Shown: piece after piece, positions 49,691 to 55,976 of the stretch | How the letters are laid out: each line of letters begins with the position of its first letter | How positions within the stretch are numbered: position 1 is the first letter of the stretch | Position numbers and translations under genes: made by a program | NCBI GenBank assembly: GCA_905479105.1 | Contig: CAJQLE010000003.1 | Location: forward strand, 310,001 to 374,000 | Direction of reading: 5' to 3' | Length of the DNA: 64,000 nucleotides | Origin: an uncultured Flavobacteriales bacterium | GTDB lineage: Bacteria > Bacteroidota > Bacteroidia > Flavobacteriales_G > Salibacteraceae | Notes under the pieces: generated by a model | Seen by the model: the letters and a program-made list of their open reading frames with translations, nothing else | Told to the model about the DNA's origin: nothing | Database searches by the model: none

Positions 49691-51301
49691 ATGAAGAAGT
49701 CCATTTTCCTCCTATTTGTAATGATGTCTTTGCAATTGGTTGCTCAAGAATCAAAGCAGGCTGCAATTGAACCAGAATATTTTGAAACGTTTTATGATGA
49801 TGAGCATAAACATCGGTTTAGTCAAGGCTATCTCCTGCAAGGTAAAAAGCATGGTGAGTGGATTTACTATTATGAAAATGGAAAGAAGCAAGAAGAAAGT
49901 CACTTTAACAACGGTTTGTTGAGTGGAAATGTAATTTATTGGTATGAAAGTGGTCAGCGTAAAGCGGAAGGATTTTTCAAGCTTATTTATCAAAAGTCTA
50001 GGCTCGAGAGTTTACGAGATAGTACGTATAAAGAGTGGTTTCCAAATGGCAATTTAAGTCAAAAAGGGGAATATTATTACGGAGTAAAAAATGGAATTTG
50101 GACGTCTTATTTTCCCGAAGGCGACAAATGGCGGGTTGTGCAATATAACAATGGAAAGGATCATCCTGCTGAAGGTTGGAATAAAGAACGAGAGCAGACT
50201 TTGATTGCTGGACAAGGAATTATCTACGATTACTACGATAACGGTCCGCTTAAATCAAAAATGGCTGTAACAGATTCTCTTTATAATGGGATGGCTGAAT
50301 ACTACCATAACAATGGCAATCTAGAGTCAGAGGGAAGCTTGCTTGATGGAGAGAAAAATGGCCTTTGGAAATATTATTTTGAAGGCGGTGAAAAATGGAA
50401 ACACATTGAATACTTAAATGGCAAGCTAGATGGAGTGATCAAAACATGGTATGCTAATGGGGAACTGAATGTTGAAGGCCAGTATAAGAGCAACTATAAA
50501 GAAGGCGAGTGGGTTTGGTATACAAAGGAAGGAACAGTGGAAATGAAAGGATCTTTCGAAGAAAGTAAGCAGCATGGCACCTGGATCTATTATTTTGATA
50601 ACGGACAGGTAGAAAGTATCGGAGAGTTTGCTATGGATCAAAGAGAGGGAGAATGGAAAATGTTCTATAAAATTGGAGCTAAATGGAAGATAGGTACTTA
50701 TCACAACGATAAGAAAGATGGCCATTGGCAAACATTTTTTGAAGACGGTCAACTTTTGCAAGAAGGAGACTTCTCAGCTGGGAAAGAAAATGGATTATGG
50801 AGCGCATGGTATCAAAATGGACAGCTTAAAGATGAAGGTACTTACGATAAAGGAATTATGAACGGATCATGGAAGGGCTACTTTGATAACGGAAAGTTGA
50901 ACTATCAAGGAGAACAAAATCAAGGAAAAAAGGCTGGTACTTGGCAGTATGGCTATATAAATGGTGAGACTCGCGAAACAGGAAGTTATAAGAATGGCCT
51001 GAAAGACGGTAGTTGGGAATATTATTTTGACTCTGGTAATTTGGATTATACAACCAGCTATACGAATGGATCAAAAGATGGCAAAAGTGTATACTATTAC
51101 CCTCACGGATCTAAGATGAGGGAAGAGACTTATGCAATGGATCGTATCTCTGGTAAGAGTAAAATGTGGAACAAAACAGGAGCCTTAATAAGTGTTAGAA
51201 ATTATAAAAATGGCGTTCCAGATGGAAAGGCTATTAACTACGATGATAAAGGCAATGTTCTGAATGTTATGACTTATAAGAACGGAATAAGAGTAGACTA
51301 G
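49691..51301 (+). CDS. Exported MORN/YwqK-repeat protein
   Basis: 536 residues. Signal peptide (MMSLQLVAQ) fixes the start at 49691. The mature protein is almost entirely tandem repeats of the MORN-2/YwqK type (pattern G-x-W-x-Y-Y/F-x-N-G-x-x-x-x-E-G), about 20 units. Examples are GEWIYYYENG, GIWTSYFPEG, GLWKYYFEGG, GTWIYYFDNG and GSWEYYFDSG. Such proteins are often labelled antitoxin by automatic annotation because of YwqK, but no toxin is beside it. An envelope or surface binding role is the most that can be inferred. Confidence 0.85.
   Translation: MKKSIFLLFVMMSLQLVAQESKQAAIEPEYFETFYDDEHKHRFSQGYLLQGKKHGEWIYYYENGKKQEESHFNNGLLSGNVIYWYESGQRKAEGFFKLIYQKSRLESLRDSTYKEWFPNGNLSQKGEYYYGVKNGIWTSYFPEGDKWRVVQYNNGKDHPAEGWNKEREQTLIAGQGIIYDYYDNGPLKSKMAVTDSLYNGMAEYYHNNGNLESEGSLLDGEKNGLWKYYFEGGEKWKHIEYLNGKLDGVIKTWYANGELNVEGQYKSNYKEGEWVWYTKEGTVEMKGSFEESKQHGTWIYYFDNGQVESIGEFAMDQREGEWKMFYKIGAKWKIGTYHNDKKDGHWQTFFEDGQLLQEGDFSAGKENGLWSAWYQNGQLKDEGTYDKGIMNGSWKGYFDNGKLNYQGEQNQGKKAGTWQYGYINGETRETGSYKNGLKDGSWEYYFDSGNLDYTTSYTNGSKDGKSVYYYPHGSKMREETYAMDRISGKSKMWNKTGALISVRNYKNGVPDGKAINYDDKGNVLNVMTYKNGIRVD
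49820..51290 (+). repeat. About 20 tandem MORN-type coding repeats
   Basis: Repeats of about 20-24 codons, recognisable by Trp/Phe followed by aromatic pairs and Asn-Gly or Asp-Gly. Unit lengths vary, so the count is approximate. Confidence 0.75.
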
Positions 51302-51322
51302 TTATTTAGAGAATAATCTTTC

Positions 51323-51330
51323 TATATTTG
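51323..51330 (+). promoter_or_regulatory. -7 promoter box (TATATTTG) of the rimP-nusA-infB operon
   Basis: Perfect TAnnTTTG match 22 bases after the preceding stop codon. Transcription would start near 51335-51338, giving a leader of about 50 bases that contains the hairpin at 51349. Confidence 0.6.
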
Positions 51331-51348
51331 CACCTGAAAAGAAGGAAG

Positions 51349-51374
51349 TGAGGGGAGTTCCCCTCATTTTTTTT
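51349..51374 (+). terminator. Intrinsic-terminator-like hairpin in the rimP leader
   Basis: Stem TGAGGGG (51349-51355), loop AGTT, CCCCTCA (51360-51366), followed by eight T. It lies between the promoter box and ATG 51385. It may end read-through from the upstream gene or act as an attenuator; because the operon encodes NusA, regulation by the product is a possibility. Confidence 0.75.
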
Positions 51375-51384
51375 GCGAATAAAT

Positions 51385-51831
51385 ATGATTTCAGAGAGCT
51401 ACATAAGGCAGTTAGTTGAAGAAAAACTCGAAGGAACAGATATGTTCATCGTGGAGTTGAGCGTGAGTTCTAATAGCAAAATTGTTGTTGAAATTGACGG
51501 TATGTCCGGGGTGGCTATTGCTGATTGTGTAGAAGTAAGTCGACAAATCGAGTCTAATTTAGACCGAGATCAAGAAGATTTTGAGTTGCAAGTTTCTTCA
51601 GCCGGTATTGATAAACCACTGAGGGATAAAAGACAATTTGAAAAGAATATTGGTAGAGAAGTCAAAATTGTACTTCAAGACAGTGCAGAGTTGAAGGGTG
51701 AATTGCTCGAAGTGGGTGATAGCTTGAAGCTGAAGTTGCCTGCTTCTAAGAAGAAAAAATTACCTGAGAGAGAAGAAATTATCGCTTGGGAAAATATAAG
51801 AGAAACTAAAATTTTAATATCGTTTAAATAA
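51385..51831 (+). CDS. rimP: Ribosome maturation factor RimP
   Basis: 148 residues from ATG 51385 (an in-frame TTG at 51373 is inside the T-run of the hairpin and unlikely). Family features: ELSVSSNSKIVVEIDG, SRQIESNL, DFELQVSSAGIDKPL and the C-terminal SH3-like part. It assists maturation of the 30S subunit. Twelve bases separate it from nusA. Confidence 0.95.
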   Translation: MISESYIRQLVEEKLEGTDMFIVELSVSSNSKIVVEIDGMSGVAIADCVEVSRQIESNLDRDQEDFELQVSSAGIDKPLRDKRQFEKNIGREVKIVLQDSAELKGELLEVGDSLKLKLPASKKKKLPEREEIIAWENIRETKILISFK

Positions 51832-51842
51832 ACAGTGCGATC

Positions 51843-53078
51843 ATGAATGCTGATGAATTAATTGAGTCGTTTCAGGACTTTAAAGAGTTTAAAAATATCG
51901 ATCGTGTGACGATGATGCACATCCTCGAGGATGTGATTCGTGGAATGATTATTCGTGAATTTGAAGATGATTCAAGTTTTGATATTATTATCAACCCAGA
52001 TAAAGGAGACTTAGAGATTTGGAGAAACAGAACCATTGTTGAAGATGGTGCCGTGGAAGATCCGCTTTCTGAAATTGAATATAGCTCAGCCATTAAAATT
52101 GAGCCTGACTTCGAAATTGGTGAAGAAGCTTCAGAAGAACTGAAGATTGAAAATTTTGGAAGAAGAGCTATTCTATCAATGCGTCAGAATCTTCAATCTA
52201 AGATTCAGGAGCTTGAAAAAGATAGTATCTACAAAAAATACAAGGATCGTGTTGGTGATATCATCACAGGTGAAGTTTATCAAATTTGGAAGCGCGAAAT
52301 TCTTGTTCTTGATGATGAGGGAAATGAGCTTGTTCTTCCTAAGATGGAGCAAATCCCAACAGATTACTTCAAAAAGGGTGATACTGTTCGCGCGGTTGTC
52401 AGCAAGGTTGACATGAAGAATACCAGCCCTGTTATTATTCTTTCAAGAACGTCACCATCATTCTTAGAGCGTCTGTTTGAAATGGAGGTTCCTGAGATTT
52501 TTGATGGATTGATTACCATCAAGAAAATCGTTCGTGAGCCAGGGGAAAGAGCTAAAGTTGCTGTTGAATCATACGATGATAGAATAGACCCAGTAGGAGC
52601 CTGTGTAGGAATGAAAGGATCAAGAATTCATGGTATTGTGCGTGAATTGCGCAATGAAAACATTGATGTAATAAACTATACCAGCAATGCTCAGTTATTC
52701 ATTCAGCGGTCTTTAAGCCCGGCAAAAATCACCTCTATTAAGTTGGATGAGGAGAATGCTAGAGCAAGTGTGTATTTAAAGCCGGACCAAGTTTCACTTG
52801 CAATTGGTAAAGGAGGACACAATATTAAGTTGGCAGGAAAGCTTACAGGATATGAAATTGATGTCTTCAGAGAGTCTGATGATGATTATGAAGATGTAGA
52901 CTTAGAAGAATTTGCGGATGAAATCGACCACTGGATTATTGACGAGCTCAAGGCCATTGGTTGTGATACAGCGAAAAGCGTTTTAGAACTAACAATTGAA
53001 GACTTGGTTAAAAGAACAGATCTTGAAGAAGAAACAGTGAAGGAGATTGTAGGGATCTTGAAATCTGAATTTGAATAA
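51843..53078 (+). CDS. nusA: Transcription termination/antitermination factor NusA
   Basis: 411 residues, the short form typical of Bacteroidota. N-terminal polymerase-binding domain (VTMMHILEDVIRGMI), S1 domain (DIITGEVYQIWKREILV), two KH domains (DPVGACVGMKGSRIHGIVREL and SLAIGKGGHNIKLAGKL), and a C-terminal helical domain (IEDLVKRTDLEEE). It modulates pausing and hairpin-dependent termination. Second gene of the operon. Confidence 0.97.
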   Translation: MNADELIESFQDFKEFKNIDRVTMMHILEDVIRGMIIREFEDDSSFDIIINPDKGDLEIWRNRTIVEDGAVEDPLSEIEYSSAIKIEPDFEIGEEASEELKIENFGRRAILSMRQNLQSKIQELEKDSIYKKYKDRVGDIITGEVYQIWKREILVLDDEGNELVLPKMEQIPTDYFKKGDTVRAVVSKVDMKNTSPVIILSRTSPSFLERLFEMEVPEIFDGLITIKKIVREPGERAKVAVESYDDRIDPVGACVGMKGSRIHGIVRELRNENIDVINYTSNAQLFIQRSLSPAKITSIKLDEENARASVYLKPDQVSLAIGKGGHNIKLAGKLTGYEIDVFRESDDDYEDVDLEEFADEIDHWIIDELKAIGCDTAKSVLELTIEDLVKRTDLEEETVKEIVGILKSEFE

Positions 53079-53120: not shown

Positions 53121-55976
53121 ATGGCAGAAGGCGCACCAATAAGACTAAGTAAAGCAGCAAAAGAGTTTAACGTAGGACTTCCAACAGTTGTTGAGTTCTT
53201 GGCGAAGCAGGGCATCAATGTTGAAGCTCGGCCAAATACCAAGATCGAGGCACATGCATATCAATTGCTGATGGATGAGTTTGCACCTGATCGTGCAAAA
53301 AAGCAGCAGTCCAATGAATTAAGCCAAACAAAGGTTGTTCGAGAGACTATTACGCTCGATGATCAGAAGAAGGTAAAGACTGAAAACAAGCAAGACCAGG
53401 AGGAAATCCTAATCAAGAATGTTGGAGGGATGGCTGATCCTGCGGCTATAGAAAAGTCAGAACCTGTTGAGGAGGTTGTAGAAAAAAAGAAGCCCGTTGT
53501 GAAGGTTGAGGCACCAGTACCTGCGAAGGAAGAGGTGGCGCCTGTCAAAGAAGTTAAGGAAGAAGAGCAGAAGGCAGAAGAAAAACCAGCAGCTCCTCGA
53601 GATGGTGGACCAAATGTTGTGGGTAAAATTGATTTATCTTCAATTAAGTCTAACCGCCCTAAGAAAAAAGCAGAGAAGGAAGAAGAGGCTAAGGTTCAAA
53701 AAGAACAAGAAGCTGAAGCATCTAAGGCTGCTGAGAAAATTAAATCAGAGGCAAAGACTGTTGAGAAAGTTGAGAAGAAGGAAGAACCAGCTGCGTCAGC
53801 TGCTCCGACTACTCCTGTAGAACCTCAGCTGATGAAGGCTACAGCTCAAAAGCTAGACGGCCCTAAGTTCATCCGAAAAATCGTCCTTCCTGAGCCAAAA
53901 GCCCCTAAGAAGCCTGATGCTTCGAGCTCTAACGATGATGCTCGAAACAAGAGAAAAAGAAAAAGATTGCCCTCTGCAGGTCCTGAGAAACCAAAGGAGT
54001 CATTCAATAGAGATAATAAGCGTCCACCTTTCAAAAAAGGCGGACCTCAAAAAGCAACTCCAAGACCAGAGCTTACTGAAGAGCAGATTCAAAGCCAAGT
54101 TAGAGAAACTTTAGCGGCTCTTAAAAGCAAGGGTAAAACTACACGCTCGAAGTATAGAAGAGAGAGAAGAGATGCTGTAAGTGAGAAAATGCAGCAGGAG
54201 CTTGAACAAGCTCAAGAAGATCAAAAAGTACTTAAAGTAACGGAATTTGTTACCGTTAGTGAATTGGCTACAATGATGAATGTATCTCCAACGGAGGTTA
54301 TTTCAATGTGTATGTCAATTGGTATGATGGTGTCTATTAACCAACGTTTAGATTCCGAAACGCTTACAATGCTAGCGGAAGAATTCGGTTATTCCGTTGA
54401 GTTCATAAGTGCAGATATTCAAGAGTCTGTAAAGAAGGAAGATATTGATGATCCAGATTCACTGGTAGAACGTCCTCCTATTGTTACTGTAATGGGTCAC
54501 GTTGATCATGGTAAAACATCTTTACTTGACTATGTGCGTAGAGAAAATGTGATTGCAGGTGAAGCAGGAGGTATTACCCAACACATTGGGGCTTACAGCG
54601 TGGAATTGGAAAACGGAAAAGTTATCACATTCTTAGATACTCCGGGTCACGAAGCTTTTACAGCGATGCGTGCTCGTGGTGCTCAAGTAACAGATATAGC
54701 CATTATTGTAATTGCTGCAGATGATGCAGTTATGCCGCAAACGATAGAAGCGATTAATCACGCTCAGGCAGCAGGTGTAAAAATGATCTTTGCTTTCAAT
54801 AAGATTGATAAAGATGGTGCGAATGCTGAAAAAATTCGTGAGCAATTGGCTAACATGAATATTTTAGTCGAAGACTGGGGAGGTAACTTCCAATGTCAAG
54901 AGATTAGCGCAAAGACCGGTTTGAATGTCAATGAATTGCTTGAGAAAGTGCTGCTCGAAGCTGAATTACTTGAATTGACGGCTAACCCCAACAAGAATGC
55001 TAGAGGATCAATTATCGAAGCAACATTGGATAAAGGTCGTGGGTATACATCGACATTAATCGTGCAGTCTGGTACACTGAAGATTGGAGATATCATGCTT
55101 GCAGGAAGTTATTTTGGTCGTGTGAAAGCGATGTTTAACGAAAGAGGGATGCCGATTGAAGAGGCTGGACCATCTCATCCGGTTAGCTTATTAGGTTTGA
55201 ATGGAGCGCCAAGTGCAGGAGACACTTTTCTCATCATGGATGACGAAAGGGAATCGAAGAATATCGCTACAAAGCGACAGCAATTGCAGCGTGAGCAAAG
55301 TATTAGAACCCAGCGAAGAAGAACTCTTGAAGATATTGGAGATATAATTCAATTGGGTGATTACCACGAAGTTAATGTGATCATCAAGGGTGATGTTGAT
55401 GGTTCTGTTGAAGCATTGGCTGATTCATTACTTAAATTATCAACGGAGAATATTGCCATTCAGGTTATTCATAAATCTGTTGGTCAGATTTCTGAATCTG
55501 ATGTATTGTTGGCAACTGCTTCAGATGCTATCATTATTGGATTCCAGGTTCGTCCATCTGCACAAGCCAGAAGGCATGCTGAGAATGAAGGAATTGAAAT
55601 CAGAATGTATTCCATTATCTATGACGCCATCAATGATATGAAGGCGGCTATGGAAGGAATGCTTAAGCCTAAGATTGAAGAACAAATCGTTTGCAACATT
55701 GAGGTTCGTGAAACTTTTAAGATCAGCAAGGTTGGAACCATTGCAGGTTGTTATGTGTTAGATGGCACGGTAACCAGAAATACTAAGGTTCGACTGATCA
55801 GAGATGGCGTTGTTCAATACAACGGTCACTTAGGCTCATTGAAGAGGTTTAAAGACGATGTTAAGGAGGTTAAAGCGGGCTTTGAATGTGGTTTGAATAT
55901 CGATAAGTACAATGATATTCAGACAGGTGATATCATCGAAGGTTACGCAGAAGTCGAAATTGCACGCAAGCTTTAA
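53121..55976 (+). CDS. infB: Translation initiation factor IF-2
   Basis: 951 residues. A DNA-binding-like IF2_N start ([20 protein letters not shown]), a long charged low-complexity region (about 90-350), then the GTPase domain with GHVDHGKTS (G1), DTPGHEAF (G3) and NKIDKD (G4). Domains II-IV follow ([30 protein letters not shown]). It loads initiator tRNA on the ribosome. Third gene of the operon. Confidence 0.98.

Follow-up and report, generated by a model that had tools for sequence, protein, structure and literature searches.

The rimP-nusA-infB operon of an uncultured Flavobacteriales bacterium raises the question of what a strong hairpin with a T tail is doing between the probable promoter of the operon and its first codon. 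The operon lies in the window, the whole stretch of 64,000 nucleotides of DNA that was analysed. The features needed to address the question are as follows.

49691..51301, + strand: upstream gene for a repeat-rich protein (NCBIfam match below the cut-off only)
51323..51330, + strand: Bacteroidota sigma-A type -7 box TATATTTG, probable promoter of the operon (motif)
51349..51366, + strand: terminator hairpin TGAGGGG-AGTT-CCCCTCA (sequence, fold, conservation)
51367..51374, + strand: run of eight T, the U tract (sequence)
51385..51831, + strand: rimP, with its ATG at 51385 (NCBIfam NF002531, above the cut-off)
51843..53078, + strand: nusA (NCBIfam TIGR01953, above the cut-off)
53121..55976, + strand: infB (NCBIfam TIGR00487, above the cut-off)

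TAnnTTTG, given as the -7 consensus of the housekeeping sigma factor of Bacteroidota in the passages cited here (PMC7366714; PMC9723704), occurs a single time on the + strand within 51201-51900, as TATATTTG. Placed from this box, the transcription start probably lies near 51336. The hairpin is built from arms at 51349-51355 and 51360-51366 around the loop AGTT (51356-51359), with all seven pairs perfect. The original prediction of a perfect seven-pair hairpin with eight T ahead of the first codon of rimP was therefore correct (51349-51374, ATG at 51385). In the predicted fold a purine run at 51341-51348 additionally pairs with the T run, and the predicted 40-nt leader (51335-51374) has a folding energy of -19.7 kcal/mol (z = -4.3), a value equalled by none of 200 shuffles. 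A generic terminator scan over 13 kb was uninformative, with 8 terminator-like sites against 9.1 expected; the rimP-leader hairpin on the + strand is absent from its sites, probably as the stem was extended into the T run there. We consider it likely, with a probability of about 0.7, that the hairpin is a promoter-proximal intrinsic terminator, or attenuator, in the rimP-nusA-infB leader, and that NusA sets its efficiency in a self-limiting loop.

Conservation was assessed in three sets of loci. The order set (L001-L030) holds 30 loci from the 38 genomes with a match among 40 searched in the window's order; the named set (L031-L110) holds the best 80 of 592 loci; and the phylum sample (L115-L208) holds 94 loci, one per genus picked among the matches listed. 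That sample excludes family f15 and most of f20, which have the weakest NusA matches, and G107, in which nusA lies at a contig edge. Loci L111-L114 and L209 onward are outside this census. An iterated profile located rimP in 106 of the 110 order and named loci and in 89 of the 94 phylum loci. Leaving out L046, L063, L083 and L096 (rimP not found) and L033 and L097 (too little upstream sequence) gives 104 leaders from the first two sets. Leaving out L162, L165, L175, L189 and L197 (rimP not found) gives 89 from the third; three of these five loci belong to family f35 and one to f39, both treated apart below, and L189 is a 67-base stub. L013 and L031 have an identical leader and are probably one record, and the sets are not fully independent. 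Neighbouring genes were assigned with a simple reading-frame caller.

Two tests were applied to the 120 nt upstream of rimP. The stricter test demands a perfect stem and a T tract, the energy test allows mismatches, and a T tract was required for a hairpin to count in all counted cases. By the energy test, a U-tailed hairpin is found in 187 of 193 leaders, compared with 36 of 579 shuffles: in 103/104 of the order and named sets and in 84/89 of the phylum sample, where 35 of 36 families have a match. Each of the six misses (L093, L132, L146, L177, L198 and L204) has by eye a U-tailed hairpin that is weaker or farther upstream. The stricter test is passed by 173 of 193 rimP leaders (103/104 and 70/89 in the same two divisions) versus 8 of 342 among other genes whose upstream gap is 40 nt or longer (4/186 with a co-directional neighbour, 4/156 with a divergent one); dinucleotide shuffles pass in 14 of 2080 cases for the order and named sets and in 34 of 1780 for the phylum sample. 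Similar hairpins had been said to occur before rimP in other Flavobacteriia, and the 187 of 193 leaders bear this out and widen it to a sample of the phylum.

The stems of the 187 leaders fall into classes by clade: 99 are GGGG/CCCC, 40 other GGG/CCC, 29 inverted CCC/GGG, 9 GTGAGCG and 10 other. The main class, GGGG..CCCC, which includes the window's stem, mostly reads (G/T)AGGGGAC..GTCCCCT; inverted and unrelated stems occur in other families. Pairing was examined in 108 of 195 leaders chosen by sequence alone (GGGG..CCCC..TTT), with shuffled partners as the control. Outward from the core, pairs are kept in 108/108 leaders at the first position (shuffled mean 102.0), 93/108 at the second (69.5) and 60/108 at the third (52.7), and inward in 83/95 (63.6) and 72/86 (60.2), all counts that relatedness inflates. 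Covariation, the check proposed with the prediction, is visible in the pairs flanking the GGGG/CCCC core and as replacement of the whole stem between families; the core is invariant in the main class. The stem sequence is clade-specific and its pairing is kept.

The main stem is also nearly confined to this operon. The pattern GAGGGGN{3,9}CCCCTCNTTTT has 26 matches in 24 of the 40 order genomes, and 23 of the 26 precede nusA by 0.47-0.57 kb; the remaining three come from a palindromic site in the window's genome, which accounts for two matches, and from one site in G037. Across 198 phylum genomes GAGGGGACN{3,7}GTCCCCTCTTT (GAGGGGAC..GTCCCCTC-TTT) is matched 23 times, at 22 sites in as many genomes, and every match lies 0.50-0.64 kb upstream of nusA; 176 genomes have no match to this pattern, and many of them have a different rimP stem. 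The window's genome carries a further GAGGGG..CCCCTC-T copy at G000:C2:260565-260594, a two-way palindrome on a contig other than that of rimP.

A hairpin in such a position could simply terminate the transcript of the gene before it and so act as an insulator, the operon's real promoter lying elsewhere. The upstream gene of the window is on the same strand and its stop codon lies 47 nt before the hairpin; it is co-directional in 29 of the 30 order loci, the window included, so that transcripts of that gene may stop at the hairpin as well. Where a tRNA-Gln lies upstream, the hairpin follows it in 9 of 10 loci. Against this, of the 64 leaders that lack an upstream tRNA and follow a divergent gene, 61 keep the hairpin, as do 109/111 with a co-directional gene and 8/8 with no gene near, and termination of the upstream gene is rejected as the whole story on the strength of the divergent cases. 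Promoter boxes, moreover, precede the hairpin. TAnnTTTG occurs in the 80 nt before it in 145 of 187 leaders, the median spacing between box and hairpin being 23 nt (controls: 10/186 farther upstream and 10/186 on the other strand), and in the 60 nt before it in 140 of 187; between hairpin and start codon it occurs in 4 of 187, in a stretch that is shorter (24 nt on average). Together with the confinement of the main stem to the operon, these observations make the insulator reading improbable. Since a box ahead of the hairpin in 140 leaders is combined with retention beside divergent neighbours, the hairpin is better regarded as a leader element than as merely the terminator of the gene upstream.

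The promoter box has its own distribution. Within the phylum sample, all 31 leaders from the class of the window's genome have it, and so do none of 20 leaders from 16 families outside that class (f16-f18, f20-f22, f28, f29, f31-f34, f38, f40, f42 and f43), so a promoter ahead of the hairpin is indicated, by motif, for the leaders that have a box. The tRNA-Gln(ttg) genes mentioned above, found in ten loci (L036, L048, L049, L064, L073, L075, L076, L090, L102 and L177), share the strand of rimP and precede it by 47-359 nt, an arrangement that recalls metY upstream of rimP in E. coli.

Which gene of the operon the hairpin goes with can be asked in families f35 and f39. RimP is a usually conserved 30S maturation factor. 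In the 40 genomes of family f35, neither of its domains (PF02576 and PF17384) is detected in 39; among the 32 genomes with a completeness of 90% or more and a contamination of 5% or less they are undetected in 31, the exception being G272, with 5% contamination. NusA is above the cut-off in 35 of the 40, has weak matches only in four and none in one, and in the three loci inspected, what comes after nusA looks by eye like the N-terminus of IF2. Thirty nusA loci of this family were collected (L211-L240), 28 of them with enough upstream sequence, and a hairpin cut-off of -6 kcal/mol, relaxed from -8, was used with its own shuffles. A hairpin with a T tract is present in 25 of the 28 nusA leaders, compared with 11 of 560 shuffles; the leaders that lack it are L220, L232 and L240, and one of the 25 that have it, L222, comes from G272. 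The hairpin is there in 19 of 21 cases in which the gene upstream of nusA is divergent. By eye, 16 of the 25 hairpins have the stem TGGGC..GCCCA, which is the stem found before rimP in f25 and f27.

Family f39 has both genes in 13 of 13 genomes. In five of these (G277, G278, G279, G286 and G287) the end of a U-tailed hairpin lies 19-40 nt ahead of nusA, and a search of the 200 nt before rimP shows none; in G276 there is a hairpin before neither gene. At the level of loci, L242, L243, L245, L250 and L254 have a U-tailed hairpin directly before nusA and not before rimP, and in L242, L243 and L245 rimP lies upstream in the same locus. Of the seven genomes of genus g111, five show a strong U-tailed hairpin at a distance of 76-149 nt from nusA that may instead end the gene upstream, and the other two show weak ones only; the rimP leaders of this genus include one strong hairpin (L210) and four weak. 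By eye, five g111 loci (L246, L248, L249, L252 and L253) show a repeated GTGTTA block about 45-75 nt before nusA that is promoter-like and unlike TAnnTTTG.

For an association with nusA, f35 is thus a clear case at the level of sequence, and f39 gives partial support only. The hairpin tracks nusA rather than rimP, because a family without detectable RimP in 39 of 40 genomes keeps it in 25 of 28 nusA leaders. A broader view of this history, to which we give even odds, is that the hairpin is an old part of nusA and not of rimP: a NusA-sensing terminator placed before whichever gene opens the nusA operon, throughout the phylum as in Firmicutes and Gammaproteobacteria, with a stem rewritten between families while its pairing is kept, nearly letter for letter the same within a family, and able to outlive the loss of rimP.

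How such an element might work can be outlined from its dimensions. RNA polymerase would start about 5 nt past the -7 box and have made the hairpin within about 40 nt; it would then either release a 40-nt RNA or continue into the operon. Because termination at such hairpins is stimulated by NusA, a rise in NusA would lower read-through and in turn NusA itself, with the levels of RimP and IF2 set by the same loop. The original suggestion of an autoregulatory attenuator is thereby supported in part: control of the leader hairpin by NusA has indirect support from its staying with nusA where rimP is gone and from the published work on other phyla described below, while termination in the cell and the effect of NusA on it are inferred. 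Given the strength of the stem and the U8 tract in the window itself, NusA may have little influence there. In the 140 leaders with a box, the predicted short RNA has a median length of 49 nt, of which a median of 17.5 nt precedes the hairpin, and six consecutive pairs with the 5' arm are possible in 10 of 140 compared with 5 of 140 after one shuffle each. With so little room and so little alternative pairing, a riboswitch, a leader peptide and an antiterminator were set aside, and as there is little space for a ligand-binding domain or a coding attenuator, the simplest reading is that the efficiency of the terminator sets the output of the operon.

The same brevity of the leader, at 40-50 nt with little room for an antiterminator or a ligand-binding structure, would also suit a terminator with a fixed low read-through, or one tuned by RimP, by ribosome supply or by NusG in place of NusA. 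In the passages cited here, Naville and Gautheret (PMC2965389) mention RimP as a protein that might provide the feedback; tuning by RimP is, however, hard to square with a hairpin that stays at nusA in f35, where RimP is undetectable in 39 of 40 genomes, and that stands before nusA and not before rimP in five f39 genomes. This evidence bears on RimP and not on a fixed terminator; we regard the group of alternatives as a whole as unlikely. It is very unlikely that the hairpin acts on the translation or stability of the rimP mRNA and that the T tract is incidental. The median distance from the end of the hairpin to the start codon is indeed 19 nt, close enough for an initiating ribosome to reach it, but in f35 its end can be 80-107 nt before nusA, too far for direct occlusion. 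The T tract itself is no test of this idea, as it was required for a hairpin to be counted. A NusA-set terminator remains the reading that we prefer.

Elements of this kind have been described before. In the passages of Naville and Gautheret (2010) cited here, rimP ranks first among genes with predicted attenuators and NusA is favoured as the factor (PMC2965389). Their element, like that of the window by sequence and fold, is a short G-rich/C-rich terminator hairpin with a T stretch 5' of rimP in rimP-nusA-infB operons, with no visible antiterminator. Its conserved stem is said to be specific to the operon, and here too the stem motif is nearly confined to it (23/26 matches in 40 genomes and 23/23 in 198, the exceptions being the palindrome of the window's genome and the site in G037). 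It differs in motif, which is GGGc..gCCC in Firmicutes and Gammaproteobacteria in the passages cited; the main class here is GGGG..CCCC, and the stem of the window lacks the c..g pair. The word "Bacteroidetes" is absent from the main text of that paper, species tables aside.

The leader of the same operon is also represented in Rfam, as RF01770 (rimP), a model of 102 positions that matches only E. coli among 14 control genomes. In E. coli, GGGCTTTAGGCCC-T7 lies 24 nt before the annotated rimP start, with CCCCGA..TCGGGG and the metY tRNA farther up. Against the rimP leader of the window no match to RF01770 is listed up to E = 10, and its gathering threshold of 47 bits is exceeded in none of 21 genomes. 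Four of the 21 have weak matches; the one in the window's genome (G000:C5:151507) lies between two convergent reading frames and was dismissed as a leader. By its sequence, the window's element is best filed with the rimP-leader attenuators, outside the Rfam model.

Feedback by NusA has been described in another phylum. In B. subtilis, NusA is autoregulated through a terminator in its own leader (Mondal 2016, as cited in PMC12288461), and in the rimP-nusA leader of S. agalactiae termination occurs 31 nt after the start, for which the authors suggest NusA feedback (PMC4448216). As told in these passages, both share with the present element an intrinsic terminator in the leader of the nusA operon, with feedback stated for the former and proposed for the latter; they differ in having RNA or protein data, whereas the Bacteroidota element is described here from sequence. 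Closer to the window, a transcribed structured 5' element before rimP is reported in Flavobacterium psychrophilum, conserved in other genera of Flavobacteriaceae and without an Rfam match (PMC9723704). In the passages cited that element reaches across one family and is given no mechanism; to it we add the phylum, the terminator form and the link to nusA. The main text of papers on the B. thetaiotaomicron transcriptome does not mention rimP or nusA, and among open-licence papers, supplementary tables aside, we found no prior report of the phylum-wide pattern or of the hairpin's retention at nusA after loss of rimP.

The rimP-leader kind of attenuator, the autoregulation of NusA in B. subtilis and the Flavobacterium 5' element are thus already known; what is added here is the reach across the phylum and the comparison with a lineage that has lost rimP. 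The 2010 description left the choice between NusA and RimP as the target open, favouring NusA, and a lineage without rimP separates the two. The clade-specific stems offer ready natural variation with which to ask what features of a terminator NusA requires. Through the levels of NusA, RimP and IF2, transcription is linked to the assembly of ribosomes and to translation. Should the loop prove real in Bacteroidota, a NusA that limits itself at a terminator in its leader would seem nearly universal in bacteria, and not the habit of a few model groups.
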